Shown: positions 149 through 11,123 of the stretch, one piece after another
How the letters are laid out: every line of letters begins with the position of its first letter
Position numbering within the stretch: position 1 is the stretch's first letter
Source: Burkholderiales bacterium
GTDB taxonomy: Bacteria; Pseudomonadota; Gammaproteobacteria; Burkholderiales; Burkholderiaceae_C
Direction: 5' to 3'
DNA length: 11,364 bases
Assembly (NCBI GenBank): GCA_013205525.1
Contig: JABMMR010000152.1
Location: 1 to 11,364 of the forward strand
The notes under the pieces: model-generated
The model's input: the letters and a program-made list of their open reading frames with translations, nothing else
Databases searched by the model: none
Told to the model about the DNA's origin: nothing
Position numbers and translations under genes: made by a program

Positions 149-952
149 ATGAAATACAGACAGAAGACCAAGTACTTTATCTATGGCGTAATTGCTACAG
201 CAGTTCTTGTGCCGCTGGGAACATATGCGGTTAAAACAATTCCTGTGACGTTCAGTGAAGGTGATGTCTTGTCTGCTTCTGTATTGAATTCACTAATGGA
301 TCGCATAAACGATACACAACAAGGCTTCACCGCCAGCACAGATATTGTTGGTACATGGTCATGCACTACTTATTCCGCACAAGGCTCTTGTACTCCTGCG
401 TTTAGCACAACTGGAGGTGGCGTACTGGATAAAGCTACACAAAACATTACTTTTTCCTGTGCAAGTGGATCATGCAGTTACACGGCGGCTTCTTTTTGGC
501 CAGCTAATTGTCAAGCTAACGGAGTCCCCACTACTCAAGCATATGAATTGAATAGCAACATGATGGCAACTTCAATTGGTGTTAATTCGGTTCATAAAAT
601 AAATCCAAACAAATTCTTCTGGAATGTTGTCTCATCATTGCCACCACTCACCTACGTTGTTTGCGAGAAGAATAATCAAGCACCTGCTCCAGCAGATGCA
701 CTCTCAGCTACAGTAAGTGGTACCAGTGTTGCGCTTGCATGGACTGACCAAAGCACAGACGAGACAGGTTTTAAGGTTCAATATAAAACTAGCTCAAAAG
801 GTACTTGGACTACAGCAACAACTACAGCAGCTAGTGCTGTCTCTTACACCTTAAGCGGATTAACTGCGGGAACTTATTGGATACGTGTTGTTGCAACCAA
901 CTCAAATGGTGATGCTATGAGTAGCAGCGAAGTACAGGGGGTAATTCAATGA
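149..952 (+). CDS. Membrane-anchored or exported protein with C-terminal fibronectin type III domain
   Basis: The 267-aa product has a basic start (KYRQKTK), then a hydrophobic segment at residues 10-27 that could be a signal anchor or uncleaved signal peptide. A short GDVLSASVLN stretch at 38-47 resembles assembly segments of tail-fibre or surface proteins. Residues about 64-173 are a Ser/Thr-rich, beta-rich domain with six cysteines (72, 81, 104, 109, 121, 172), suggesting disulfides outside the cytoplasm. Residues about 178-267 are a fibronectin type III domain, with the ALAW strand, TGFKVQYK and the ending TYWIRVVATNSNG. The start at 149 has only a weak ribosome-binding site; a four-codon frame starting at 138 ends over this ATG in an ATGA overlap. 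Base composition is much more AT-rich than the operon on the other strand, which suggests separate acquisition. The stop overlaps the next start (ATGA, 949-952). The ligand or partner is unknown. Confidence 0.85.
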   Translation: MKYRQKTKYFIYGVIATAVLVPLGTYAVKTIPVTFSEGDVLSASVLNSLMDRINDTQQGFTASTDIVGTWSCTTYSAQGSCTPAFSTTGGGVLDKATQNITFSCASGSCSYTAASFWPANCQANGVPTTQAYELNSNMMATSIGVNSVHKINPNKFFWNVVSSLPPLTYVVCEKNNQAPAPADALSATVSGTSVALAWTDQSTDETGFKVQYKTSSKGTWTTATTTAASAVSYTLSGLTAGTYWIRVVATNSNGDAMSSSEVQGVIQ

Positions 953-1166: not shown

Positions 1167-2234
1167 TCAGTCCTTGTTTGGTAAATCCGCCTCGGCCTCA
1201 ATCACCGAATAAAAAGCCTCGTCGCGCATGGGAGTCACCTTGGTGATGCGAAAGCCGGCATCTTCGAGCAACTGTTTGTAGACCGACAAGGGCTTGAAAA
1301 GCGCTCTGCCATAAGAGTCATAAAAAATATAGCGAAATTCCCAGGCCAAGGTGAAGTCGGTATTGCCTTCCAGCATGGCTTCGTTGATAACCAATTTGCC
1401 GCCAGGCGCCATGCAGCGCCTGACTTTGTCAAACAGCATTTTGCATACCGTGGGCTGCCAGTCGGCCAATGTGCGGTTGAACAGCACATGGTCAAAGCCG
1501 GCGGGGAATTCATCTTTGAAAAAATCACCTTCATGCACTTGTACACGCTGGGTCATTTGGCGCTCAGCAATATGCGCCATGGCCAGTTCTGCCGACACCG
1601 GCAGGTTGAACACCGTCACCTGCATGTGGGGGTATGCGCTGCACAAAGCGCAACCCACTGTGCCGTCGCCCCCGCCAATGTCGAGCAGTTTGTCGGCCTT
1701 GGCCACGGCTTGGGACATCAGCAAAGTGTCTATGCTGCCCGCAGCGGTCAGGCGCATCCAGTAGTACTCGAAATGTTCCACAGATTCGCGTGTGGCGTAA
1801 GGCCAGTTGATGCCTTCGGGCAAAGGTGCGCCACGCAGCACATCGATGAGCGAGAGGTTTGCCACCTTCTTCCAAAACCCCACCAAGTCGCGGTAGAAAA
1901 AACCTTCATTGCCTGCAGGCCCAAAAAAATACTTGGCATCTGCCGACAAACCAAACAGAGTTTCATCACCACTGTAAACACCGTTGCTCTCTTCCAATAA
2001 ACCGCTCAAGGCCAAGAGGTGCAAAAACTTCCATCCGCGGTGAAGGTTCAGGCCCAACAACACACAAATTTGTTGGGCTGGCATGGGTCCATGGTGACCC
2101 AATAACTCGGGGATTTGCAAGTCGAAAAAAACTTCCAGCAAGCGCAGACGCGCGCCTCCGCCCAAGATGCTGTAGTAGTTGCTGTCCATGGCACGAAGAG
2201 AGCCTTGGGGCGCGAGGAGTTCAGGGTGTTTCAT
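1167..2234 (-). CDS. SAM-dependent methyltransferase, O-methyltransferase (Methyltransf_2) type
   Basis: This 355-aa protein has the layout of acetylserotonin/caffeate-type O-methyltransferases: an N-terminal helical, winged-helix-like dimerisation domain (about 18-150), then a Rossmann catalytic domain. The SAM-binding motif I is LLDIGGGDGT at 183-192. The acidic loop is FNLP (209-212) where the family usually has FDLP. EGDFF (235-239) and the post-motif PGGKLVINE (277-285) also fit. The position of the usual catalytic His in LHDW reads LADW (256-259), so the general-base His is missing; the enzyme may methylate a different atom or rely on another base. The start at 2234 has a good AAGGAG site a few bases upstream. 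It is the last gene of the operon, 14 bases after the soluble sirtuin. Inferred role: late methylation of the pathway product. The substrate is not predictable. Confidence 0.85.
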   Translation of the reverse strand: MKHPELLAPQGSLRAMDSNYYSILGGGARLRLLEVFFDLQIPELLGHHGPMPAQQICVLLGLNLHRGWKFLHLLALSGLLEESNGVYSGDETLFGLSADAKYFFGPAGNEGFFYRDLVGFWKKVANLSLIDVLRGAPLPEGINWPYATRESVEHFEYYWMRLTAAGSIDTLLMSQAVAKADKLLDIGGGDGTVGCALCSAYPHMQVTVFNLPVSAELAMAHIAERQMTQRVQVHEGDFFKDEFPAGFDHVLFNRTLADWQPTVCKMLFDKVRRCMAPGGKLVINEAMLEGNTDFTLAWEFRYIFYDSYGRALFKPLSVYKQLLEDAGFRITKVTPMRDEAFYSVIEAEADLPNKD

Positions 2235-2248
2235 CTCTCTCCTTTTTC

Positions 2249-3088
2249 TCAGTCTTGAACAAGTTCATCCATGGCTTGCAAAGCGGCAAGAGCCGCCATA
2301 GACAGACCCATGCTGCCACTTAACTCGCAGTGTGGTTCTCTGGGGTTGATGCGGATCAAAGTGGCTTCGCTGTGCTTGGCTATGCGCTCTGAAAAAGAGC
2401 GCACAGTGGCCACTTCGGTGCCCGCGCCTATTTCGATCACCAAGAGCTGTTTGGTTTTCGCTAGGAAAGAATTTAAGGCTTGGTCTTTGCGTTCACGCTG
2501 TGTGTCCACCCAACTCCAGTCGCCAAACATCAAGATATTGGGCCGTGCCAGTGCTTGGCATTGGGGGCATGTAGGCAAGTCGCCAAGCCACTGGCAAGTG
2601 CCGGTGTCCACACTGGGCGTCAGCAAGTCACTAGACCAAGTGCGGGGCTCACAAGGCGTGGTGCATTGCAGGCGGTGGATCGTGCCGTGGCATTCATAGA
2701 CTTGTTTTTCTGCAAAGCCGGCGCGTTGAAACTGACCATCCACATTGCTGGTGAAAACAAAACTGCCATGCGGCATCAAGGCCGACCAGCGCTTGAGTAT
2801 GTCAAAGCCTGCATGGGCTTGTGTGTCTCGGTACAGCTTTAAGCGGTGGCCGTAAAACCCCCAGGCTTGTCTGGCATCACGCTCAAAAGCCTTGGGGTGT
2901 GCCATGTCTTGAAAATTCAAACCGCTTTCACCCAAGGCCGGATAGGCTTTCCAAAAACCGCTGTTGCCTCTGTAGTCGGGCAGACCTGAATCCACACCCA
3001 TGCCAGCCCCTGCGGTAATCAGCAAGCCGTCCGCTGCTTGCAAAGCCTGTGCTGCAGCTTGCAGGTCGGGCGAAGCTAAATACGCCAT
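2249..3088 (-). CDS. Soluble Sir2-family NAD-dependent deacylase (sirtuin)
   Basis: The 279-aa cytoplasmic protein has the full sirtuin motif set: GAGMGVDSGLPDYRG (27-41), the NAD-binding TSNVDGQF (113-120), catalytic His134 in ECHGT, four zinc-type cysteines (142, 146, 174, 177 in QCTTPC and CPQC), and INP (247-249) in the C-terminal NAD-contacting strand. Sirtuins remove acyl groups from lysines using NAD+; some ADP-ribosylate instead. The open frame extends upstream to 3337, but that part overlaps the preceding gene in another frame. The ATG at 3088 lies two bases after the upstream stop and gives the normal family length. No strong ribosome-binding site is visible, so coupled translation from the fused sirtuin gene is likely. 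RGNSGFW after the first motif differs from classic CobB and may mark a subfamily. Its substrate may be an enzyme or product of this operon (inference). Confidence 0.9.
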   Translation of the reverse strand: MAYLASPDLQAAAQALQAADGLLITAGAGMGVDSGLPDYRGNSGFWKAYPALGESGLNFQDMAHPKAFERDARQAWGFYGHRLKLYRDTQAHAGFDILKRWSALMPHGSFVFTSNVDGQFQRAGFAEKQVYECHGTIHRLQCTTPCEPRTWSSDLLTPSVDTGTCQWLGDLPTCPQCQALARPNILMFGDWSWVDTQRERKDQALNSFLAKTKQLLVIEIGAGTEVATVRSFSERIAKHSEATLIRINPREPHCELSGSMGLSMAALAALQAMDELVQD

Positions 3089-3090
3089 GT

Positions 3091-4725
3091 TCAAAGCTGG
3101 GCTTTTGACAAGCCCATATAGTCTGAGAGGGCAGGCAGCAAGTCTTCGGCCTTGTAAAACAGCAAGCGGTCGTTCGCTGTCAACACACAAGCGGGATAGC
3201 CTGGCATGATGAAAAAGCAGGGTACTTGGCGCAGCCGGGCTTGCTCTATCAATGCCAAAGCAGACGTGACGGCCACTTGGGTGCCAATCACCAGCATCAG
3301 GCTGCAGGTGCTGACCGCTTGTTGCGCTTGCAGCCAAGTAGCCAAAGAAATATCTTCACCAAAGGCAATCACTGCGGGTTTGAGGAAACCGCTGCATTCG
3401 CACACCGCATCATTGTGTTGCCAAACAGCGGGTTCTGGCCATGCTTGTGATGCGCCACACAACAAGCAGTGCACATGGTCGATATTGCCGTGCAGTTCCA
3501 CTGTGCTTTGTGTGCCAGCCTTGTGGTGCAAGCCATCCACGTTTTGCGTGATCACGGTGCGAACAAAACCGGCTTGTTGCAAAGCTGTCAGCGTCAGGTG
3601 CGCGGGGTTGGCTGGCGCAAGTGCTGCGGTTTTAAAAAACCGGTGGCAGGAGTTCCAGTACATCAAACGTGAATAACGGTTGTAAATAAAACCAGCGTAG
3701 TTATAGGTTGCCAAAGGCACGCCGGGTTCTAGCCAGTCGCCACGGGTGTAGTCGGGAATACCGGACGCGGTGCTGATGCCAGCACCCGTGAGTACCACCG
3801 CACCACCTTGGGCTTTTGCGTTGCGTAAATGTTGGGCCAAAGATTGCACGCCGGGGTCGAGAAACATCAAGCGGTGTTGGCGTTTGATCAAAGCAAAGAC
3901 CAGCCAAATACCCAAGAACATGGGCGCCATCAGCGAGGGCAGGTGCGACAGGCCGCTCAAATGGGGCCAAGCCAATTCCAAACCCAGAGTGATCAAGCCG
4001 GCCAAGGCGGCCAAGGGGTAGGCCCTGGCGTGGCCGGGGAGCAAGGTGCCAGGCAACGAGAACAAAACCAAAAGCACGGTGAACCCCAAAACCAGGGTGT
4101 TGGCAAGTGAGGGCTGTACATCTTGGACATAGAAATACGCTGCGCCCGCCAAGACCGCACCGACCAGTGCAAACAGCGTGGCGCGTATGTTGTGCAGCAG
4201 CATGGCCGCCAACAAACACAAGCCCGCCAAGCTCAAAGACAAGCTGCTGGGCTCGGTGCGCATGCCCATAGACCAAAAGTCACCACCGAAATAAAGCGTC
4301 ACATAAATAGCCGCCCACAGCGTCACCAATGAGGCCACACCCAGCGAGGGAAAGCCATAGCTGTAAGCGGTGCTGACCATTCTGAAACGCATGGCATAGC
4401 ATGCGCCAATCGCCATGGCCAGCAACACAGCAGACTGCATATCTCGCGACAACAAGCCCGCCCAAAGCAGGCCGATGACAGCGCCATCAAACAGGTTAAA
4501 ACCGTTGCTCCACTCCAGCGGGTGTTGGCGCAGCACATTGGCGCAAATAAACAGCGCCATGAGAGCGCCCAGCGCCATGCCAGCAGCGCTCCAGGGCGAG
4601 TACAAGGTCAGCGCCAATAAAAACAAAAAACCCTGCAAAGGCGTGCTGAGAAAAACAACTTGCGCCTGCGCATTCAACCAAGCGCTTGCGTAGGTTTGCC
4701 AAGGTGTCTTGGCGAAGGCCAGCAT
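3091..4725 (-). CDS. Fusion of a urea-transporter-like membrane domain with a C-terminal sirtuin
   Basis: The product is 544 aa. Residues 1-285 hold about ten hydrophobic segments arranged like the two five-helix repeats of urea transporters: VVFLSTPLQGFLFLLAL (23-39), the signature-like NGFNLFDGAVIGL (74-86; family pattern GxxGFNGxLVG), a second repeat from about 168, and a degenerate second signature near 208-226. Residues about 295-544 are a sirtuin: GAGISTASGIPDY (314-326), TQNVDGLH (393-400), catalytic His412 in ELHGN, cysteines 420, 423, 442 and 444, and LKPAVIAFGE (448-457). Two usual NAD-contact positions differ: GTQ at 481-483 where GTS is common, and IMP at 506-508 where IN is usual. 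The short loop after helix ten would place the sirtuin in the cytoplasm. The start is six bases after the decarboxylase stop. Inferred role: an NAD-dependent deacylase tethered to, or gating, a channel for urea or another small amide. Confidence 0.85.
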   Translation of the reverse strand: MLAFAKTPWQTYASAWLNAQAQVVFLSTPLQGFLFLLALTLYSPWSAAGMALGALMALFICANVLRQHPLEWSNGFNLFDGAVIGLLWAGLLSRDMQSAVLLAMAIGACYAMRFRMVSTAYSYGFPSLGVASLVTLWAAIYVTLYFGGDFWSMGMRTEPSSLSLSLAGLCLLAAMLLHNIRATLFALVGAVLAGAAYFYVQDVQPSLANTLVLGFTVLLVLFSLPGTLLPGHARAYPLAALAGLITLGLELAWPHLSGLSHLPSLMAPMFLGIWLVFALIKRQHRLMFLDPGVQSLAQHLRNAKAQGGAVVLTGAGISTASGIPDYTRGDWLEPGVPLATYNYAGFIYNRYSRLMYWNSCHRFFKTAALAPANPAHLTLTALQQAGFVRTVITQNVDGLHHKAGTQSTVELHGNIDHVHCLLCGASQAWPEPAVWQHNDAVCECSGFLKPAVIAFGEDISLATWLQAQQAVSTCSLMLVIGTQVAVTSALALIEQARLRQVPCFFIMPGYPACVLTANDRLLFYKAEDLLPALSDYMGLSKAQL

Positions 4726-4741
4726 AAGGCGTTAAGCCTTA
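4725..4741 (-). promoter_or_regulatory. Small hairpin at the decarboxylase / transporter-sirtuin junction
   Basis: On the transcript (minus strand) TAAGGC, a five-base loop TTAAC and GCCTTA form a perfect six-pair stem. It spans the decarboxylase stop codon and reaches the A of the ATG of the fused transporter-sirtuin gene. It lacks a T tract, so it is not a Rho-independent terminator. It could slow initiation of the membrane protein or favour re-initiation by terminating ribosomes. It may also be chance. Confidence 0.35.
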
Positions 4742-6129
4742 GGCGCTTTGTTTTTCAAGTGCTTGGGCACCGAGTCCAGCGCAAAAATATCTTCTCGGGT
4801 TTCGCGGCGGCGAATCACTTCAGGCCCGTTTTTGCCCAGCAAAACCACCGCAGGACGGGGTTGAATGAACTGCATGGACTGGGTCAAGCAATAAGCGCCC
4901 ACATTGGAGACCACCAAAGAGGAACCCAAGGACATGGGGGGCAGCATGGCGCGTTCGCGCAGCACATCGATTTGCATGCACAAGGGGCCAAACACCGACA
5001 CAGGTTGCGCGCCCATGACGGCGGCTTCGTCGTCAAAAGCAGAGGCTTCCACGCCGTGGTCGTACCAATAGGCAGTGGGCAACAGGTTCACACCCGCGTC
5101 CACAATCACCGCGTCGCCGCGACCTGGAATGGATTTGCGCGAGACCACGGTGCAAGCCATTTTCATGGCTGAATCGATGACCGCCCGTCCAGGCTCCAAC
5201 ATCAAAGTGGGGCGCTCGCCAAAGGCTTTGCCAGCTTTGGTCAGACCGCCAATGATGGCGTCGGCAAAGGGTTGCAGGTGTCGACCGGCGCCGCCGCCGA
5301 GTTCTACGGACTCAAAAGCAGGCTTGAGGCGATTACTTGAGGGGTAGCCGCCGCCAAAGTCAGCAATACGAACCGGTGGCATGCCCAGTTCGATGACTTT
5401 CTTCGCGACACCAGTGAGCACTTGCGCGGTACGCGCGTAAATGTCGGGGTTAACTTGGTAAGTGCCAGAGTGGTTGTGCAGTGCTTCAAGGCTCAGGCAA
5501 GTGCCGGCCTTTTTTACCCGTTTAAGGGCTTCGACCGCGTCGCCGTTGTCGTAGTTGAAACCAAACTTGGTCCATGACTGCTCGCCATGTTGGAAGTTGA
5601 TGCGCAGGCCAATGCGTGCCGTCATTTTCATTTGCTTGGCAATTTTCGCCAAGGCATCTAGCTCGTCATAGCTGTCGATGTTGATGAGCGCGCCTTCGGT
5701 CACCGCACGAATGAGTTCATGGGTTTGTTTGTAGGGGCCGTTGAAAATGATTTGGTGTCCAGGCACATTGAGGGAACGCGCCAAGTCGTATTCCATGCCA
5801 GAAACCACTTCCGCAAAGGCACCTTCTTGTTGGAAGATGGCGCACACAGCGGGCAGGTAATTGGTTTTGTAGGAATAACCAATGATGGTGTCAATGCCCG
5901 GGGCAGTGAACGCGTCCCGAAATGAGCGGTAAAGCGTGCGCACGGATTTTTCCGACACGATGTACAGGGGCGAGCCAAACTCGGCCAAGAGTTCGTTGAC
6001 ATCGCCCATTTCATCAAAGTCAGAGTCCTCTGACTTGATTTCATGCACGCGGTGTTTTTGCATGCCTTGCTGGGTGGCTAACTGCTCCAAGCGGGGAGTT
6101 TCATACTTCTTTTTAACGGCGACTAACAT
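4732..6129 (-). CDS. PLP-dependent decarboxylase, alanine-racemase fold (type III), with leader-like N-terminal extension
   Basis: The 465-aa enzyme belongs to the ornithine/diaminopimelate decarboxylase superfamily. Visible landmarks are YSYKTN (85-90, Lys88 forming the PLP Schiff base), HNHSGT (218-223), the phosphate-binding DFGGGYP (257-263), EPGRA (312-316), the partner-subunit active-site loop GPLCMQIDVL (381-390; Cys384, Asp388) and VGAY (410-413). Diaminopimelate decarboxylases have Glu after that Cys; here it is Met, so meso-diaminopimelate is unlikely as substrate. An extra stretch of about 45 residues precedes the barrel and contains YETPRLEQLA (9-18), matching the YxxPxLxxL(G) motif of peptide leaders bound by PqqD-like proteins. 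The start at 6129 overlaps the ATP-grasp gene by 17 bases and has GAGGAG upstream (about 6140-6145). Only the first five or six codons lie in the overlap, so the motif is free coding sequence. Inferred role: makes an amine or modified residue in the pathway. Confidence 0.88.
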   Translation of the reverse strand: MLVAVKKKYETPRLEQLATQQGMQKHRVHEIKSEDSDFDEMGDVNELLAEFGSPLYIVSEKSVRTLYRSFRDAFTAPGIDTIIGYSYKTNYLPAVCAIFQQEGAFAEVVSGMEYDLARSLNVPGHQIIFNGPYKQTHELIRAVTEGALINIDSYDELDALAKIAKQMKMTARIGLRINFQHGEQSWTKFGFNYDNGDAVEALKRVKKAGTCLSLEALHNHSGTYQVNPDIYARTAQVLTGVAKKVIELGMPPVRIADFGGGYPSSNRLKPAFESVELGGGAGRHLQPFADAIIGGLTKAGKAFGERPTLMLEPGRAVIDSAMKMACTVVSRKSIPGRGDAVIVDAGVNLLPTAYWYDHGVEASAFDDEAAVMGAQPVSVFGPLCMQIDVLRERAMLPPMSLGSSLVVSNVGAYCLTQSMQFIQPRPAVVLLGKNGPEVIRRRETREDIFALDSVPKHLKNKAPKA

Positions 6130-8287
6130 GACGGATCTCTCCTCGATTAATAAACATGGCCATGGCGCTGGCGCTGGCGGAAATTTCTTGGGCGGTGCGT
6201 AAAAACACCAAATCTTTGTCCAAAGCAGCTGCTTTGGGCGAGAGCAGGGGAGTGCGTGCTAAAGCTTTGAGCATCAGCGCTCGCGGCAAATTGACACCGA
6301 CCAACTCACCATAACCTATCCAAGCGGGTAAGCGTGGATTGACCTCGATCAAAATCATGCGGTCCGTGGTGATGTCGCGTATGAGTTCAACATCGGCGGG
6401 GCCTTGCCAGCCCACTTTTTTCAGCAGGCCACCCAAGCGGTGCATCACATCGGGCATATCCACTTTGATGCCAGACCAGGTTTTGCCGCGTTCGCACATG
6501 ACGGTCTTTTTCAGGGGCAGAGCGTCAAACATATTGCTGTCGCTGTCGCAAACCAAGCCAATGCTGAACTCTTCACCAAACACCACGGCTTGCACAATGA
6601 TTTTGTCTTCGCCAAATTCTTTGTAGCTGGCAAAAGCCAACTCGGCTTGCGCCAAGCTAAACACTTTGGTGGCCAGTGAATTCAAGCCCTTGATCATCAT
6701 CGGCGAGCCAAAGCGCTTCCAAGCCATCTGCAATTGTTTTTTGCTGCCCACCACCACGGTAGAGGGGAAGTCAAAATCAGCATAGCCATTGCGTTGGCCT
6801 AATTTGATCAGGCCTTGCTTGCTGAGCTTGTCGGTGGCTTGTGGCGTTGGCAACAAGGTATGGATACCGTGGGCAAGCAATTCACCCGAGATGCGTTGGT
6901 AGCGTGCAATCTCCACATCCAAATTGGGAATCACCATGTCCAAGCCATGCGCTTTTTGGATCGCCAACAAACGGTTCAAGGTGGCTTCATCGCAGCGCTC
7001 GGGCTTGTCTTCGTTGTCGTCAATCGGCATGCGGGCGCACACATCAAAGATTTCCTTGCGAAACAAACCGGTGTCGGTCGAGGCATAGCCCAAACCAATG
7101 ACTTGCCCGACTTCAGGCGCACTGCGCAAGCTGCGACCCACGCCCAAGCCAGGCTGGGTTAATTCCAGTGCGGAAATACCGGTGACCGCCACCGACACAT
7201 CGCCACGGCGAGACTTGATAACAGCAGGCGCGGGAACGACTGCCGAACCTGTGCGGGCCAATCCAACGATGGAACTGGCCGGCACCACCATCTCTTGCAC
7301 ATCGCGCGCATACATGGCACCGACTTGCGCTTGTTTGGGTGCGCGGCTGCCAGGCTCGAGAATTTCTTTGACCAAGGCCATGGGCTGGTTGGCTCCCGCC
7401 ATAGCCGTGAGGTAAACCCAAGAGGGGAAACGGCAGTTGACTTCCAGCAAATAAAAATGACCATTGCTTTGCGAGCGCACAAACTCAAGCTCTAGTGGGC
7501 CCCGCCAGTTCAGTTTGGAGAGTATGTGCAAAGCCAATTTGCGCAGGCTGGGGTCTTCCACCACCGAACCGACCATGCCTTTGCCGCGGGCATTGAGGCC
7601 AATTTTGCGCATCATGGTCATAGCCAAGCATGAGCCGTCTTCACGCGCCACCATGGACACCACATGCTCGGAGCCTTCAATCGCTTCTTGCAGCAAAACA
7701 CCGCCGCCCCATTTGGCGGCCAAAATGCTGGCTTCGTAAGCCGCTTGGTGAGCGTTATATACCCGTTTGGCACCTGCCACCGTGCCCTTGACCCACAGCG
7801 GGTAGCCAAACAAATCCGCATGCAAAGCCACAGAGGAAATGTCCAGCACATGCGTGGTTTTGGGGGAGATGATTTGGTTGGAGTAGCAAAACCAGTAAAG
7901 CTGAGGCTTGGTGATTTTGAAACTGTCGTCAGGATCAGGCAGCAAAGTGCGAATGCCCTCGCGCAGCAAGCGCTTGGCCAAACGCGCGTAAAGCGGCACC
8001 TCTAAATCTAGACAAGGCAAAAGCACATCAATCGGATGCTCATGATGGATGGCCAAAATTCTTTGCAGGGCAGCAAAGTCGCCATTGGCGATCGGGGAGA
8101 TGATGTGTACGGAATTGGCCACACCGGGTGTCCAAGCACCGGTGGTCCAAGTGTCGTAGACCAAGCCAAGAATTTCCAGGGGACCGGTCCAGTGGTCGCG
8201 CAGGGCTCTTGCCACTGCCAGACCCGGCTCCGGATTATCCAAACCACCCCAACCTGTTAACGCCACCCTGAGTGGTTTCGATTTCAT
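6113..8287 (-). CDS. Tandem ATP-grasp ligase (two CarB-like halves)
   Basis: The 724-aa protein is an internal duplication. Each half has a pre-ATP-grasp Rossmann part (6-125 and 364-485) and an ATP-grasp part (about 126-310 and 486-675). Matching landmarks are VALTGWGG/VAVTGISA, EPGLAVARALR/QPGLGVGRSLR, DVLLPCLDLEV/DMVIPNLDVEI, the ATP-binding lysines 167 and 533, and the metal ligands Glu268/Glu282/Asn284 and Glu634/Glu648/Asn650. Both halves keep these, so both may hydrolyse ATP. ATP-grasp enzymes form amide or similar bonds through an acyl-phosphate; carbamoyl-phosphate synthase is the best-known tandem case. No glutaminase partner is present, the protein is shorter than CarB (about 1070 aa), and I see no clear CarB oligomerisation domain. 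The ATG at 8287 overlaps the PqqD-like stop in ATGA, with AGAGG just upstream. Inferred role: ligation of an amino acid or carboxylate guided by the PqqD-like protein. Confidence 0.85.
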   Translation of the reverse strand: MKSKPLRVALTGWGGLDNPEPGLAVARALRDHWTGPLEILGLVYDTWTTGAWTPGVANSVHIISPIANGDFAALQRILAIHHEHPIDVLLPCLDLEVPLYARLAKRLLREGIRTLLPDPDDSFKITKPQLYWFCYSNQIISPKTTHVLDISSVALHADLFGYPLWVKGTVAGAKRVYNAHQAAYEASILAAKWGGGVLLQEAIEGSEHVVSMVAREDGSCLAMTMMRKIGLNARGKGMVGSVVEDPSLRKLALHILSKLNWRGPLELEFVRSQSNGHFYLLEVNCRFPSWVYLTAMAGANQPMALVKEILEPGSRAPKQAQVGAMYARDVQEMVVPASSIVGLARTGSAVVPAPAVIKSRRGDVSVAVTGISALELTQPGLGVGRSLRSAPEVGQVIGLGYASTDTGLFRKEIFDVCARMPIDDNEDKPERCDEATLNRLLAIQKAHGLDMVIPNLDVEIARYQRISGELLAHGIHTLLPTPQATDKLSKQGLIKLGQRNGYADFDFPSTVVVGSKKQLQMAWKRFGSPMMIKGLNSLATKVFSLAQAELAFASYKEFGEDKIIVQAVVFGEEFSIGLVCDSDSNMFDALPLKKTVMCERGKTWSGIKVDMPDVMHRLGGLLKKVGWQGPADVELIRDITTDRMILIEVNPRLPAWIGYGELVGVNLPRALMLKALARTPLLSPKAAALDKDLVFLRTAQEISASASAMAMFINRGEIRHVSRR

Positions 8288-8562
8288 TTAGCCTCTAGCA
8301 TGTCCAAGGTTCGCAGCTCTTTCACCAAAGACAAAACGTCTTTGCGAGCGGTATCTTCATCGATATCAAATTGCTCGGTCAAGAGGTCGGTGAGGCGGGC
8401 CACATGAGCGCCCTTTTTCATCGCCTCGACCAGCACCCAGCCGGATGAGTTGCATGCGCAAATCACCGCGGTCTGGGTATCAAACAGCATGCCGCATTCG
8501 CCTTCAGTATCAGGCTCAAGGTTGATGCGGCTGCGCAGTTTTAAGCTGACGGCTGGTTTCAA
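8284..8562 (-). CDS. PqqD-like protein (RiPP recognition element fold)
   Basis: The 92-aa protein fits the PqqD family in length and layout: an N-terminal beta hairpin region (about 7-40, RINLEPDTEGECGMLFD), the N-x-x-G-x-x-L position in NSSGWVLVEAM (38-48), then helices DLLTEQFDIDEDTARKDVLSLVKELRTLDML (59-89) typical of the winged helix. PqqD proteins bind peptide leaders and present them to modifying enzymes. Cysteines 23, 35 and 37 are unusual additions. No ATG suits the fold; the first ATG, codon 25, would delete strand one. TTG at 8562-8560 overlaps the TPR gene stop as TTGA and is the best start, although a slightly longer protein cannot be excluded. Translation is probably coupled to the TPR gene, which may keep this protein scarce. 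It is followed, with ATGA overlap, by the ATP-grasp gene. Likely partner: the YxxPxL tail of the decarboxylase, or a precursor encoded elsewhere. Confidence 0.82.
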   Translation of the reverse strand: MKPAVSLKLRSRINLEPDTEGECGMLFDTQTAVICACNSSGWVLVEAMKKGAHVARLTDLLTEQFDIDEDTARKDVLSLVKELRTLDMLEAK

Positions 8563-11123
8563 AGCTTTTTCAACTCTTCCAAACCGAACAAAGCGTCACC
8601 ATAGGTGGCATTTACTTTCAAGGCTTCTTGGAAGTACTTGGTCGCACCAGCTTTGTCCTTTTGCAAGGTCTTGGCAAAGCCCATACCTGCCAAAGCATCC
8701 AAGCTGAAGGGGTTGCGGCTGACCTCAGCTGCAAACAACTTCTCGGCTTTTTCGCCATTGCCCAAGCGGTAGTTCACCCAGCCCAAAATGGAGCCAGCGG
8801 TGTATTCGACATACCAGTAAGAGAAGGGAAAGCCAGGAACGGGCTTGTTACGGGGAACAGGCAACAAGGTTTTGGGTTCCAGCGCCAAGGCTGCTTCAAG
8901 GAAAGGCACGGCTTCCTTGTGCTTGCCCATGCGGTAGTAGGTAAAGCCAATACCGCGACCGTTGTTGGGGTCTTTCGAGCCGGCTTTGTTGGACTCTTCA
9001 AAACGCTTGATGGCGGTTTCAAAGCTGCCCGCGTAGTAGTTGCCCCAGCCCAAGGTGGACAGAACCACCGGCGTCATTGTGGCGGAAATTTTCAGCTTGC
9101 CCAACACGGGGTCAATGTAAGTGGGTGCCAAAGAAACAGCAGCCAGTGCTTTTTTGTCTGCATCGGCTTGGTTGTTCAGACCGTTGTAGGCGCGAGCCAG
9201 CGAAAACTGAATGTCAGCCGAGAAGGGGTAAATCAACTCGCCCAGTTTCAACACTTCGCGCGCATCCACAAAAGCACCGTCGTCAATCATCTTCACGGTA
9301 GGCGCGGTGAAAGCGGCGACACCTTGGTAAGGCGCCAAGTTGTAAGCCGTCACCAAAGACTTGCTGGCGGCTTCATATTGCTTGAGTTCGGTTTGCGCGT
9401 AGCCCAAACCTTTGTGCGACAAAAAGGCTTTGGGGTTGGCGGCAACGATGGCGGCAAACGCTTTTTGTGCGCCGGCATAGTCTTTCTTGTAGAAAGCCAT
9501 CCAAGCCAAACCGTCTTCAACCAGCCATTTGATGTCGGCGGGCATTTCGCCACGCGCTTGTTCGAACTTGGCCTTGGCTTCGTCGAATTGACCGGCTTCG
9601 AGCTTGGCCCAAGCGGTGTTGTAAATCACCAAGTCAGCACGCTTGGCAGCAATCACGCCGCTTTGTGAAGAGTAGTAGTTGGCGTCAATTTTTAAAGCTG
9701 CAGCAAAAGAAGCCGCAGCAGCTTTGGGCTCACCCATGGCCAACTGTGTCCAGCCCATGCCGTCTAAAGCAACGGGGTTGTTGGCAGAAGCGGCTTCCGA
9801 CTCTTTGGCCTTGAAGGCCGCCAAAGCGCCTTTGAGGTCGCCCTTGAAATAAGCTTCCCAGCCGGCTTTCACCAAAGCAGTTTTGCCGAATTGCAGGGTG
9901 GCCAAGCCAGAGGTGGCTGAAGCGTAGAAGGGGACTTTCTTGATCGAGGCATTGTAGAATTTCTCAGCACCTGCCAAGTCGTTTTTGGCTAAAGCCACCC
10001 AGCCCAAACCGGCCAAGGCGTCGGCGTTGTCACCGGCTTTGTTGGCTGCGTCAAAAGCTTTGATGGCTTCAGGGTATTTTTTCAGCGCCAGTTGTGACCA
10101 GCCTGTACCCAGGTGTCCGCTGACCTCGGTGCCACCAGCTTCGGCGTACTGCTCAAAGCGTTTGATGGCAGCCGCTGCCGAGCCGCCGTAGTACAGCGAC
10201 CAAGCCATGGACAACAAAGCGGTTTGCTTGGCTTTGCCGGTCAGTTTGATCTTGTCAAACACGGGGTCAATATAGAAAGGCGCCAAACTGGCGGCGTAGG
10301 TCAAGCTGGAAAGCGCGACTTTTTCATCATTCAAGCCGTTGCTGGCGCGTGAAATCAGGTAGTACAGGTCGGCCGAGAAGGGATAGGCAAATTCGCCCAT
10401 CAACAACATCGCCTTGGCTTCTTTGAATTGACCTGCGTTGATCAGGGTGTCTGCATTGCTGGTGTAAGAAGCCAATGATTGGTAAGGATTGAGTTTGAAA
10501 GACTGGCTCAGGTTGGAAGCCGCTGCTGCGTAGTCTTTCTTTTTCATGGCAACCGTGCCCAAACCGGTCAAAGACAAATAGGCTTTGGGGTTTTTAGCGA
10601 TCACGTCTTTGAACATCTTCTCTGCACCGGCGCTGTCGCCCTTGTAGTACGCCATCCAAGCAAAGCCGTCATCCATCAGCCATTGCAAATCGGCAGGGGC
10701 TTCTTTTTTGGCATCGTTGAAATAGCTGGCAGCTTCATCAAAGCGGCCTAAGTTCACCAAGCCCCAAGCTTTTTGGTAGGGCACTAACAACAGGCCTTCA
10801 GCGGAATAAAGGCCGCTGTAAGAATAAGAAAAATTGGGGTCAATCGCCAAAGCGTCTTTAAAAGCGTTGCGCGCATCAGAGGTTTTACCCATGGCCAGTA
10901 AAGTCCAACCACGGCCGTCAGCGGCAGCGGCGTTCTTTTTAGACTTGGCGTCGGCTGCTTTGGCATCAAAAGCTTTAAGCGCACCTTCTAAATCGCCTTT
11001 GAAGTAAGCGCTCCACGCGTCTTTGACGATGGCGGTTTTTTCAAATGGGGTGGGTTCGGCAGCAAAACTGACTGCGCCTACTGCCATCATGGCAGCGACA
11101 AGGGTGGTGCGTACAAACTTCAT
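8559..11123 (-). CDS. Exported TPR-repeat protein with internal duplication
   Basis: The 854-aa protein begins with a Sec signal peptide (MKFVRTTLVAAMM...; cleavage likely near SFA-AEP, residues 19-23), so it should be periplasmic or outer-membrane associated. The rest is helical TPR-like repeats with recurring GW/GxxxxxxG, A-x-x-x-F and NP positions. Residues 27-411 and 412-820 are two copies of one module: FEKTAIVKDAW/FGKTALVKAGW, YPFSADLYY/YPFSADIQF, YIDPVFDKIK/YIDPVLGKLK and AIKRFEQ/AIKRFEE all lie exactly 385 residues apart. Near the end the second copy carries an extra Pro-rich insert (about 749-779) with FPFSYWYVEY. TPR arrays are protein-binding scaffolds; no enzymatic domain is seen. 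The start at 11123 has AAGGAA shortly upstream. It is the first gene of the operon, and its stop overlaps the PqqD-like start. Inferred role: a periplasmic scaffold or receptor for the pathway product or for an envelope partner. Confidence 0.88.
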   Translation of the reverse strand: MKFVRTTLVAAMMAVGAVSFAAEPTPFEKTAIVKDAWSAYFKGDLEGALKAFDAKAADAKSKKNAAAADGRGWTLLAMGKTSDARNAFKDALAIDPNFSYSYSGLYSAEGLLLVPYQKAWGLVNLGRFDEAASYFNDAKKEAPADLQWLMDDGFAWMAYYKGDSAGAEKMFKDVIAKNPKAYLSLTGLGTVAMKKKDYAAAASNLSQSFKLNPYQSLASYTSNADTLINAGQFKEAKAMLLMGEFAYPFSADLYYLISRASNGLNDEKVALSSLTYAASLAPFYIDPVFDKIKLTGKAKQTALLSMAWSLYYGGSAAAAIKRFEQYAEAGGTEVSGHLGTGWSQLALKKYPEAIKAFDAANKAGDNADALAGLGWVALAKNDLAGAEKFYNASIKKVPFYASATSGLATLQFGKTALVKAGWEAYFKGDLKGALAAFKAKESEAASANNPVALDGMGWTQLAMGEPKAAAASFAAALKIDANYYSSQSGVIAAKRADLVIYNTAWAKLEAGQFDEAKAKFEQARGEMPADIKWLVEDGLAWMAFYKKDYAGAQKAFAAIVAANPKAFLSHKGLGYAQTELKQYEAASKSLVTAYNLAPYQGVAAFTAPTVKMIDDGAFVDAREVLKLGELIYPFSADIQFSLARAYNGLNNQADADKKALAAVSLAPTYIDPVLGKLKISATMTPVVLSTLGWGNYYAGSFETAIKRFEESNKAGSKDPNNGRGIGFTYYRMGKHKEAVPFLEAALALEPKTLLPVPRNKPVPGFPFSYWYVEYTAGSILGWVNYRLGNGEKAEKLFAAEVSRNPFSLDALAGMGFAKTLQKDKAGATKYFQEALKVNATYGDALFGLEELKKL

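Follow-up and report, generated by a model that had tools for sequence, protein, structure and literature searches.

A widespread, apparently undescribed core of PqqD-like, ATP-grasp, decarboxylase and channel genes in which the channel carries either a sirtuin or an M23 tail

Results

Contig JABMMR010000152.1 (G000:C90), analyzed here over its entire length of 11,364 bases and called the window, belongs to a metagenome-assembled genome of a freshwater bacterium (1.86 Mb, 82.8% complete) and carries an operon of seven genes. Four of these genes form a conserved core that encodes a PqqD-like protein, an ATP-grasp ligase, a fold-III pyridoxal phosphate (PLP) decarboxylase, and a membrane channel of the urea transporter (UT) type fused to a C-terminal enzyme domain. 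The conserved unit is this core and not all seven genes. The system is widespread and apparently undescribed, and the operon in the window is its local version. No published description of the gene set was recognized in the open-licence literature, consistent with the preliminary description of this DNA, which knew of no pathway with such a set. Because no known kind of system was found to hold the core, we take it to be a new kind; its chemistry may turn out to be a variant of conjugate decarboxylation.

Of 398 genomes searched in the phylum, 36 matched the ATP-grasp profile with an E no higher than 1e-60; in the order the count was 5 of 399, the window's own genome being included in both, and two families gave 4/98 and 3/117. 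A decarboxylase relative adjoined the ATP-grasp gene in 33 of 33 short loci (L031 to L063, with L056 cut by a contig end). Apart from the window we compared 32 wide neighbourhoods from 31 genomes, which were chosen by the ATP-grasp gene, so that its presence in them is given. The phylum search matched 35 genomes besides the window's own, and 20 of them contributed wide neighbourhoods (21 loci); the loci and the window together carry 14 family labels (f1, f11, f21, f44, f75, f76, f78, f79, f82, f86, f95, f99, f102, f104). The PqqD-family domain was present in 32/32 neighbourhoods, the decarboxylase in 31/32, and the UT domain in 27/32, with L076 and L092 lacking UT at a contig end. The genes followed the order PqqD, ATP-grasp, decarboxylase, UT on one strand, the exception being L077, which holds parts of two copies. 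Among the loci compared, the methyltransferase and the stand-alone sirtuin of the window were matched in three congeners only, apart from sirtuin-to-sirtuin matches with UT-Sir2 tails; for loci of the window's type outside the genus, the evidence for their absence comes from L064 and L065, because contig ends truncate the other loci. The preliminary description had suggested testing whether the seven genes occur together across genera. This is true of the four-gene core, across the 14 family labels, and not of the set of seven, since among the loci compared the stand-alone sirtuin and the methyltransferase were matched in this genus only. The scattering of genes in related genomes that it had named as counter-evidence was not seen for the core.

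The system occurs in two forms. Most of the ATP-grasp proteins found have a single domain (~365 aa) and are paired with a UT-M23 metallopeptidase fusion (~725 aa), and the window has a tandem ATP-grasp protein with a UT-Sir2 fusion. The tail is an M23 domain in 20/32 loci and a sirtuin in 6/32 plus the window; NAD-dependent deacylation, put forward in the preliminary description as a step or control, is thus not general. Where ATP-grasp, UT and tail run together, the tandem protein goes with the sirtuin in 7/7 cases (window included) and the single-domain protein with M23 in 19/19. L077 is outside this count because its UT-M23 is part of a second copy with a different decarboxylase next to it, and L096 breaks off within UT. 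Both forms exist within one genus (G778 tandem; G561 and G961 single) and within one family (G676, G903 and G883 tandem; G899 single). G883 has its ATP-grasp gene on one contig and its decarboxylase, UT-Sir2, NadE-like and GNAT genes on another, and the two contigs are likely one locus. G778, which has the sirtuin form, also encodes on the opposite strand relatives of a TPR protein and a small exported protein (OMP, a script label) of the M23 form. In L073 and L077 the decarboxylase and UT-M23 genes flank a GNAT gene related (54 and 56% identity) to the one downstream of UT-Sir2 in G676 and G883. From these sequence patterns we read both forms as one system with an exchangeable channel tail.

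Named sources of UT-M23, among the matches listed, include Ghiorsea, Mariprofundus, Magnetococcales, and Gammaproteobacteria, and those of UT-Sir2 are Betaproteobacteria, Alphaproteobacteria, and Nitrospinota. A UT-M23 relative in Ghiorsea bivora is annotated only as a urea transporter, and a tandem ATP-grasp relative in Sulfuritalea hydrogenivorans sk43H as a hypothetical protein. Conservation was read from three alignments: A1, with the window and 26 of 177 ATP-grasp relatives (120 listed); A2, with 32 of 864 UT-Sir2 matches (120 listed, many of them plain sirtuins); and A3, with 19 of 598 UT-M23 matches (120 listed) and four sequences from the loci. At E 1e-70, UT-Sir2 was found in 1 of 350 genomes of the class, the window's own.

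The channel fusion of the window (3091..4725, minus strand, 544 aa) has a Pfam UT domain at residues ~1-285 and a SIR2 domain at ~290-540, and the two parts have the UT and the Sir2 fold, respectively. NCBIfam urea-transporter scores are below the 274.6-bit cut-off in both types (32.3 for the window, 108.7 for the M23 type). The fused sirtuin keeps GAGxS, QNxD, the catalytic His, and the four zinc cysteines, and catalytic residues are kept in both tail types. The VIA list, made up mostly of sirtuins, carries no weight against other folds. The M23 and sirtuin tails are both predicted to be cytoplasmic, and the deacylase activity of the fused sirtuin and urea conduction by the UT domain are putative. 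One UT-Sir2 relative, P0171 (697 aa), has an extra C-terminal macrodomain, a domain type that handles ADP-ribose products.

The ATP-grasp protein of the window (6113..8287, minus strand, 724 aa) has two Pfam ATP-grasp stretches, with the conserved Lys, Glu, Asn, and Arg kept in both halves. Its top fold match is the large chain of carbamoyl-phosphate synthetase. When the halves of 27 tandem proteins were placed in a tree with 20 single-domain proteins, N halves, C halves, and singles were each separated by one branch (support 100/100, 100/99, and a weak 89/58). One fusion suffices to explain the tandem protein because each of these groups stands on one side of a branch.

The decarboxylase (4732..6129, minus strand, 465 aa) has both Pfam domains of fold-III PLP decarboxylases and carries the lysine motif YSYKTN and the motif GPLCMQID. 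Its best match in the Protein Data Bank (PDB) is N-citrylornithine decarboxylase (E 1.6e-50), ahead of diaminopimelate decarboxylase (5e-40); 7ru7, an L-glutamyl-[BtrI acyl-carrier protein] decarboxylase (E 2.2e-22), and 2j66, BTRK (E 2.7e-22), are also among the matches. The aligned motif is GPSCMQHD in FigC and GGLCESSD in diaminopimelate decarboxylase (1twi). Identity with the latter enzyme (LysA) was rejected on the basis of CMQ in place of CES and a score of 195.5 bits against a curated cut-off of 297.9. FigC decarboxylates citrate-bound ornithine to give rhizoferrin, and its substrate contacts were derived from docking, with Met355 said to stack on the substrate chain and His357 and Arg387 to bind citrate (PMC7857480). 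With FigC numbered as in that description, Met355 corresponds to Met385 of the window, within the shared CMQ motif, and Tyr383 to Tyr413; both are invariant in an alignment of 30 decarboxylases from which partial genes (<1200 bases) were left out. Decarboxylation of an amide-bound conjugate is plausible on this likeness.

The PqqD-like protein (8284..8562, minus strand, 92 aa from a TTG start; PF05402, E 1.3e-9) comes nearest in NCBIfam to PqqD chaperones that serve the maturation of lasso peptides and other peptides, with scores under the cut-offs of these families. A TetR-type domain precedes the PqqD domain in 7/32 loci, and this fusion suggests that PqqD is a ligand sensor; its role may be to bind a peptide, to bind a carrier, or to sense. 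In L068 (7974-8789, plus strand) such a fusion of a TetR-type DNA-binding domain to PqqD heads an M23-type operon.

The seven open reading frames (ORFs) of the window run head to tail on the minus strand from 11123 to 1167, most overlapping their neighbour. Junctions computed from the coordinates are -4, -4, -17, +6, -4 or +2 (with a TTG or an ATG start, respectively, for the stand-alone Sir2), and +14 bases; these agree with earlier values, including +2 with the ATG start, except that the first had been given as -3. The seven same-strand genes and their named domains are present as previously described. All seven are under purifying selection between the window and its congeners, with ratios of nonsynonymous to synonymous substitution of 0.00-0.20 (six genes compared with three congeners and the TPR gene, split in L024, with two), and their order is kept in three congeners (G013, G021, G024). 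Kept order and purifying selection rule out a chance neighbourhood.

The stand-alone Sir2 (2249..3094, minus strand; 281 aa from TTG or 279 aa from ATG at 3088; Pfam SIR2) is of a second Sir2 type, different from the fused sirtuin. It has an ECHG motif with His, and its best PDB matches are SIRT5 chains (4e-18) and then 5a3a (6.4e-12), which we take to be a SirTM. Class M sirtuins (SirTM) have the catalytic His replaced; the His of the window protein and the rank of SIRT5 ahead of 5a3a led us to reject this identity. Last in the operon is an S-adenosylmethionine-dependent O-methyltransferase (1167..2234, minus strand, 355 aa; PF00891, Methyltransf_2). The first gene encodes an 854-aa protein (8559..11123, minus strand) with Pfam TPR repeats and an N-terminal signal-like sequence, judged by eye to be exported. 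As the window is an entire contig, the sequence 5' of this gene is cut off. A large TPR protein lies directly upstream of PqqD in six of eight tandem-type loci (not in L065 and L091) and in none of the single-type loci, two of which have only weak TPR-repeat matches. The proteins at this place in tandem-type genomes G676 and G883 are close relatives of the window's, and counting all positions a TPR protein is nearby in 19/32 loci. In G024 (L024:178-2731) the gene is broken into two ORFs of 789 and 83 aa by a frame break or an assembly error. The small exported OMP protein, which has no Pfam or NCBIfam match and looks beta-barrel-like by eye, is nearby in 15/32 loci, in nine of them downstream on the same strand.

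A NadE-like paralogue lies directly behind UT-Sir2 and is followed by a GNAT gene in G676 (L064:9053-9955, plus strand) and G883 (L117:529-1407, minus strand, match ends). In G676 there is a 4-base overlap between its ATG and the stop of UT-Sir2, and the L064 protein (300 aa) has a NAD synthase domain alone in Pfam. The NAD synthase family was present in 10/10 genomes searched; in G676 and G883 the operon copies are paralogues with low scores, 107 and 113 bits vs ~240 for the usual gene. Supplying NAD to the sirtuin and forming an amide are possible roles of this protein.

The ATP-grasp gene was found in 4 of 84 genomes of the genus, the window's own included. The operon has a GC content of 54%, against 42% for the left flank. 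In both G013 and G021 the operon begins next to one and the same small gene (DUF140, a script label). The operon of G013 sits between DUF140 and KFA, a label given by reading the sequence without a search. The listing of G036 yielded nothing in the ATP-grasp search, and there ~30 bases separate KFA from DUF140 (L108, match ends at 1343 and 1376); judged by sequence, this junction is the empty site of the operon. Downstream neighbours vary: KFA in G013, a gene labelled HemW-like by eye in G021, and in the window an fn3-domain protein (149-952, plus strand; Pfam, PHROGs) in the low-GC flank with weak matches to phage tail families. Within the genus the operon is a discrete accessory unit. Two additional genes stand between UT-Sir2 and Sir2 in G013 (L023:15188-17098); they encode an exported-looking 263-aa protein without a Pfam match and a YHYH protein. 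A second, diverged copy in G021 (L027, G021:C260:1-3129) holds the end of the decarboxylase, UT-Sir2 (85% identical to the window's), and the start of Sir2, and reflects duplication or a strain mixture.

A phage origin was considered and rejected; PHROGs matches among the seven proteins given (the TPR protein left out) were the two sirtuins, the methyltransferase, and the fn3 protein. A defence system was also rejected, PADLOC giving no match for seven of the eight window proteins at E 0.001 and a single match, of the methyltransferase to mad2 (E 1.2e-9). No structured RNA or tRNA was found in the window, and predicted promoters and terminators were not above those of shuffled sequence (4 vs 4.9 and 13 vs 15.9).

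Discussion

Our best reading, held tentatively and at somewhat less than even confidence, is that the core ligates an amino acid to a partner, decarboxylates it while attached, cuts or deacylates the conjugate at the channel mouth, and exports a small product. The ATP-grasp enzyme would use ATP to join the amino acid to a peptide or carrier bound by PqqD or to another small acid, and the PLP enzyme would then decarboxylate the amide-bound amino acid in the manner of N-citrylornithine decarboxylase. At the cytoplasmic pore mouth the channel-fused domain would cut or deacylate the conjugate, by hydrolysis (M23) or with NAD+ (sirtuin), and the UT channel would let out a small uncharged or amide product. 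Tailoring or control of the product would fall, in the window's genus, to the second sirtuin and the O-methyltransferase. The linkage of the genes, the identity of their domains, the kept active-site residues, and the exchange of tails are observed. The main argument is an analogy: because M23 and sirtuin tails exchange, they would share an amide-cleaving step. A more far-reaching proposal, to which we give a rather small chance, is a general system of biosynthesis and release in which a urea-type channel would have an amide-cleaving enzyme as its cytoplasmic end, one protein both freeing the small amino-acid-derived product and passing it across the membrane; the cut would be made by two unrelated chemistries, a zinc peptidase and a NAD-dependent sirtuin, and the sirtuin would act biosynthetically on a small-molecule conjugate and not on proteins.

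Several observations weigh against the conjugate reading. The His357 and Arg387 that bind citrate in the available account of FigC are replaced by Ile387 and Gln417 in the window (counted on the alignment), and because of this replacement the conjugate partner would not be citrate. In three of 32 loci (L071, L097, L099) the contig extends past the decarboxylase but has no UT there, the UT domain of the window has diverged from the M23 type (Pfam 56.1 vs 178.5 bits), and two of seven hydropathy counts (L083, L064), by a crude method, gave nine segments, which would place the tail outside. The eight window proteins include no carrier protein domain in Pfam. Within 700 bases upstream of PqqD there was no convincing precursor peptide ORF common to families, downstream and distant regions not being searched. 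The small exported OMP protein was found in 4 of 12 genomes searched and was absent from eight, namely four genomes of the window's genus, the tandem-type G676, G903, and G883, and the single-type G899. A regulatory acylation cycle is likewise compatible with the NadE-like and GNAT genes next to UT-Sir2 in G676 and G883, and we infer every substrate, the order of steps, and export. The idea in the preliminary description of a product made from an amino acid or peptide is thus partly borne out: PqqD and decarboxylase adjoin the ATP-grasp gene and the decarboxylase resembles the amide-linked type, but no convincing precursor peptide ORF was found in the 700 bases searched upstream of PqqD.

The chief rival, whose chance we judge modest but real, makes the sirtuin a regulator that deacylates lysines of the operon's enzymes, with the GNAT as writer, the NadE-like protein as a local NAD supply, and the channel as a membrane tether. 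CobB deacylates a lysine of acetyl-CoA synthetase, and the gene order behind UT-Sir2 in G676 and G883, with its 4-base overlap in G676, fits such a cycle. However, an M23 peptidase holds the sirtuin's position in most loci (20/32), and a related GNAT is present in two loci of the M23 type that gave no sirtuin match, L073 and L077. Neither NadE-like nor GNAT relatives were matched in the loci of G013, G021, G024, and G778 or among the window proteins, the contigs of the window and G024 ending at the operon.

A second rival, which we regard as unlikely, is that PqqD presents a ribosomal peptide encoded elsewhere, as in the making of ribosomally synthesized and post-translationally modified peptides; the ATP-grasp enzyme would form an amide or ester, the decarboxylase would alter the terminal residue, and M23 or sirtuin would be a leader peptidase or a deacylase. 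The universal PqqD-family domain (32/32 loci) and its nearest NCBIfam names, though below cut-offs, speak for it. The 144 small ORFs found ≤700 bases upstream of PqqD (regions elsewhere were not searched) gave no convincing cross-family match, their matches being within single family labels with the exception of a weak match between L065 and L093 (E 3.8e-5 over 38 residues), whose two ORFs are outside the PqqD frame and resemble chance reading frames. Because PqqD and the TPR gene overlap in the window's genus, the small ORFs upstream of PqqD there lie inside the TPR gene. The TetR-type domain before PqqD in seven loci suits a sensor.

Processing of cell-wall fragments, with M23 cutting peptidoglycan peptides, the decarboxylase taking diaminopimelate pieces, the exported TPR protein remodelling the wall, and the sirtuin form as a repurposed side branch, is improbable: M23 domains are usually murein endopeptidases, the M23 domain here has weak NCBIfam matches to MepM and Pgp3 (E 0.0025 and 0.0038), and the decarboxylase is also related to diaminopimelate decarboxylase, but its motif GPLCM[NQ]ID is not of that type, M23 is placed after the channel like the NAD-dependent sirtuin, which is expected to be cytoplasmic, and a sirtuin could not replace a murein endopeptidase.

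Work on sirtuins has centred on protein deacylation and NAD sensing. In this system a whole sirtuin forms the C-terminal part of a membrane channel and is exchanged for a metallopeptidase in other loci, and from this exchange follows a testable claim on the roles of both domains. If the more far-reaching proposal is true, a sirtuin would have a biosynthetic role, on a small-molecule conjugate instead of proteins. Relatives exist in named bacteria under bare annotations, so the product can be sought.

Parts of the system resemble known ones. The channel differs from urea transporters (UT, SLC14, bacterial yut) in its C-terminal sirtuin or M23 domain and in scores below the NCBIfam cut-off. The ATP-grasp protein resembles the large chain of carbamoyl-phosphate synthetase, its top fold match, in having two ATP-grasp units per chain; it differs in length (724 vs 1073 residues in the E. 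coli chain), and no other window protein is of carbamoyl phosphate use. In butirosin biosynthesis an ATP-grasp enzyme (BtrJ) loads glutamate on the carrier BtrI, where BtrK decarboxylates it. The window shares the pairing of ATP-grasp and fold-III decarboxylase, the latter matching 2j66 and 7ru7, but has no acyl-carrier protein (Pfam, eight proteins), with PqqD in the carrier's place; we know of no channel of the UT-fusion kind in the butirosin pathway. SirTM operons, in the part of the report available, include a lipoylated carrier and a macrodomain (PMC4518038). Like them, the window has a sirtuin in a metabolic operon, and a macrodomain occurs on the UT-Sir2 relative P0171; unlike them, the window sirtuin keeps its catalytic His and no lipoate genes are among the window proteins. 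The accessible part of the account of the FigA/FigC rhizoferrin pathway showed no counterpart of the window's channel, PqqD, and TPR genes (PMC7857480), the ligases differ, that of the window being an ATP-grasp enzyme and not a NIS synthetase, and the window's decarboxylase lacks the residues said to bind citrate. The pathway ligates citrate to ornithine before decarboxylation and offers the closest solved relative of the decarboxylase, with the CMQ motif in common and with genes for a ligase and a decarboxylase standing together.

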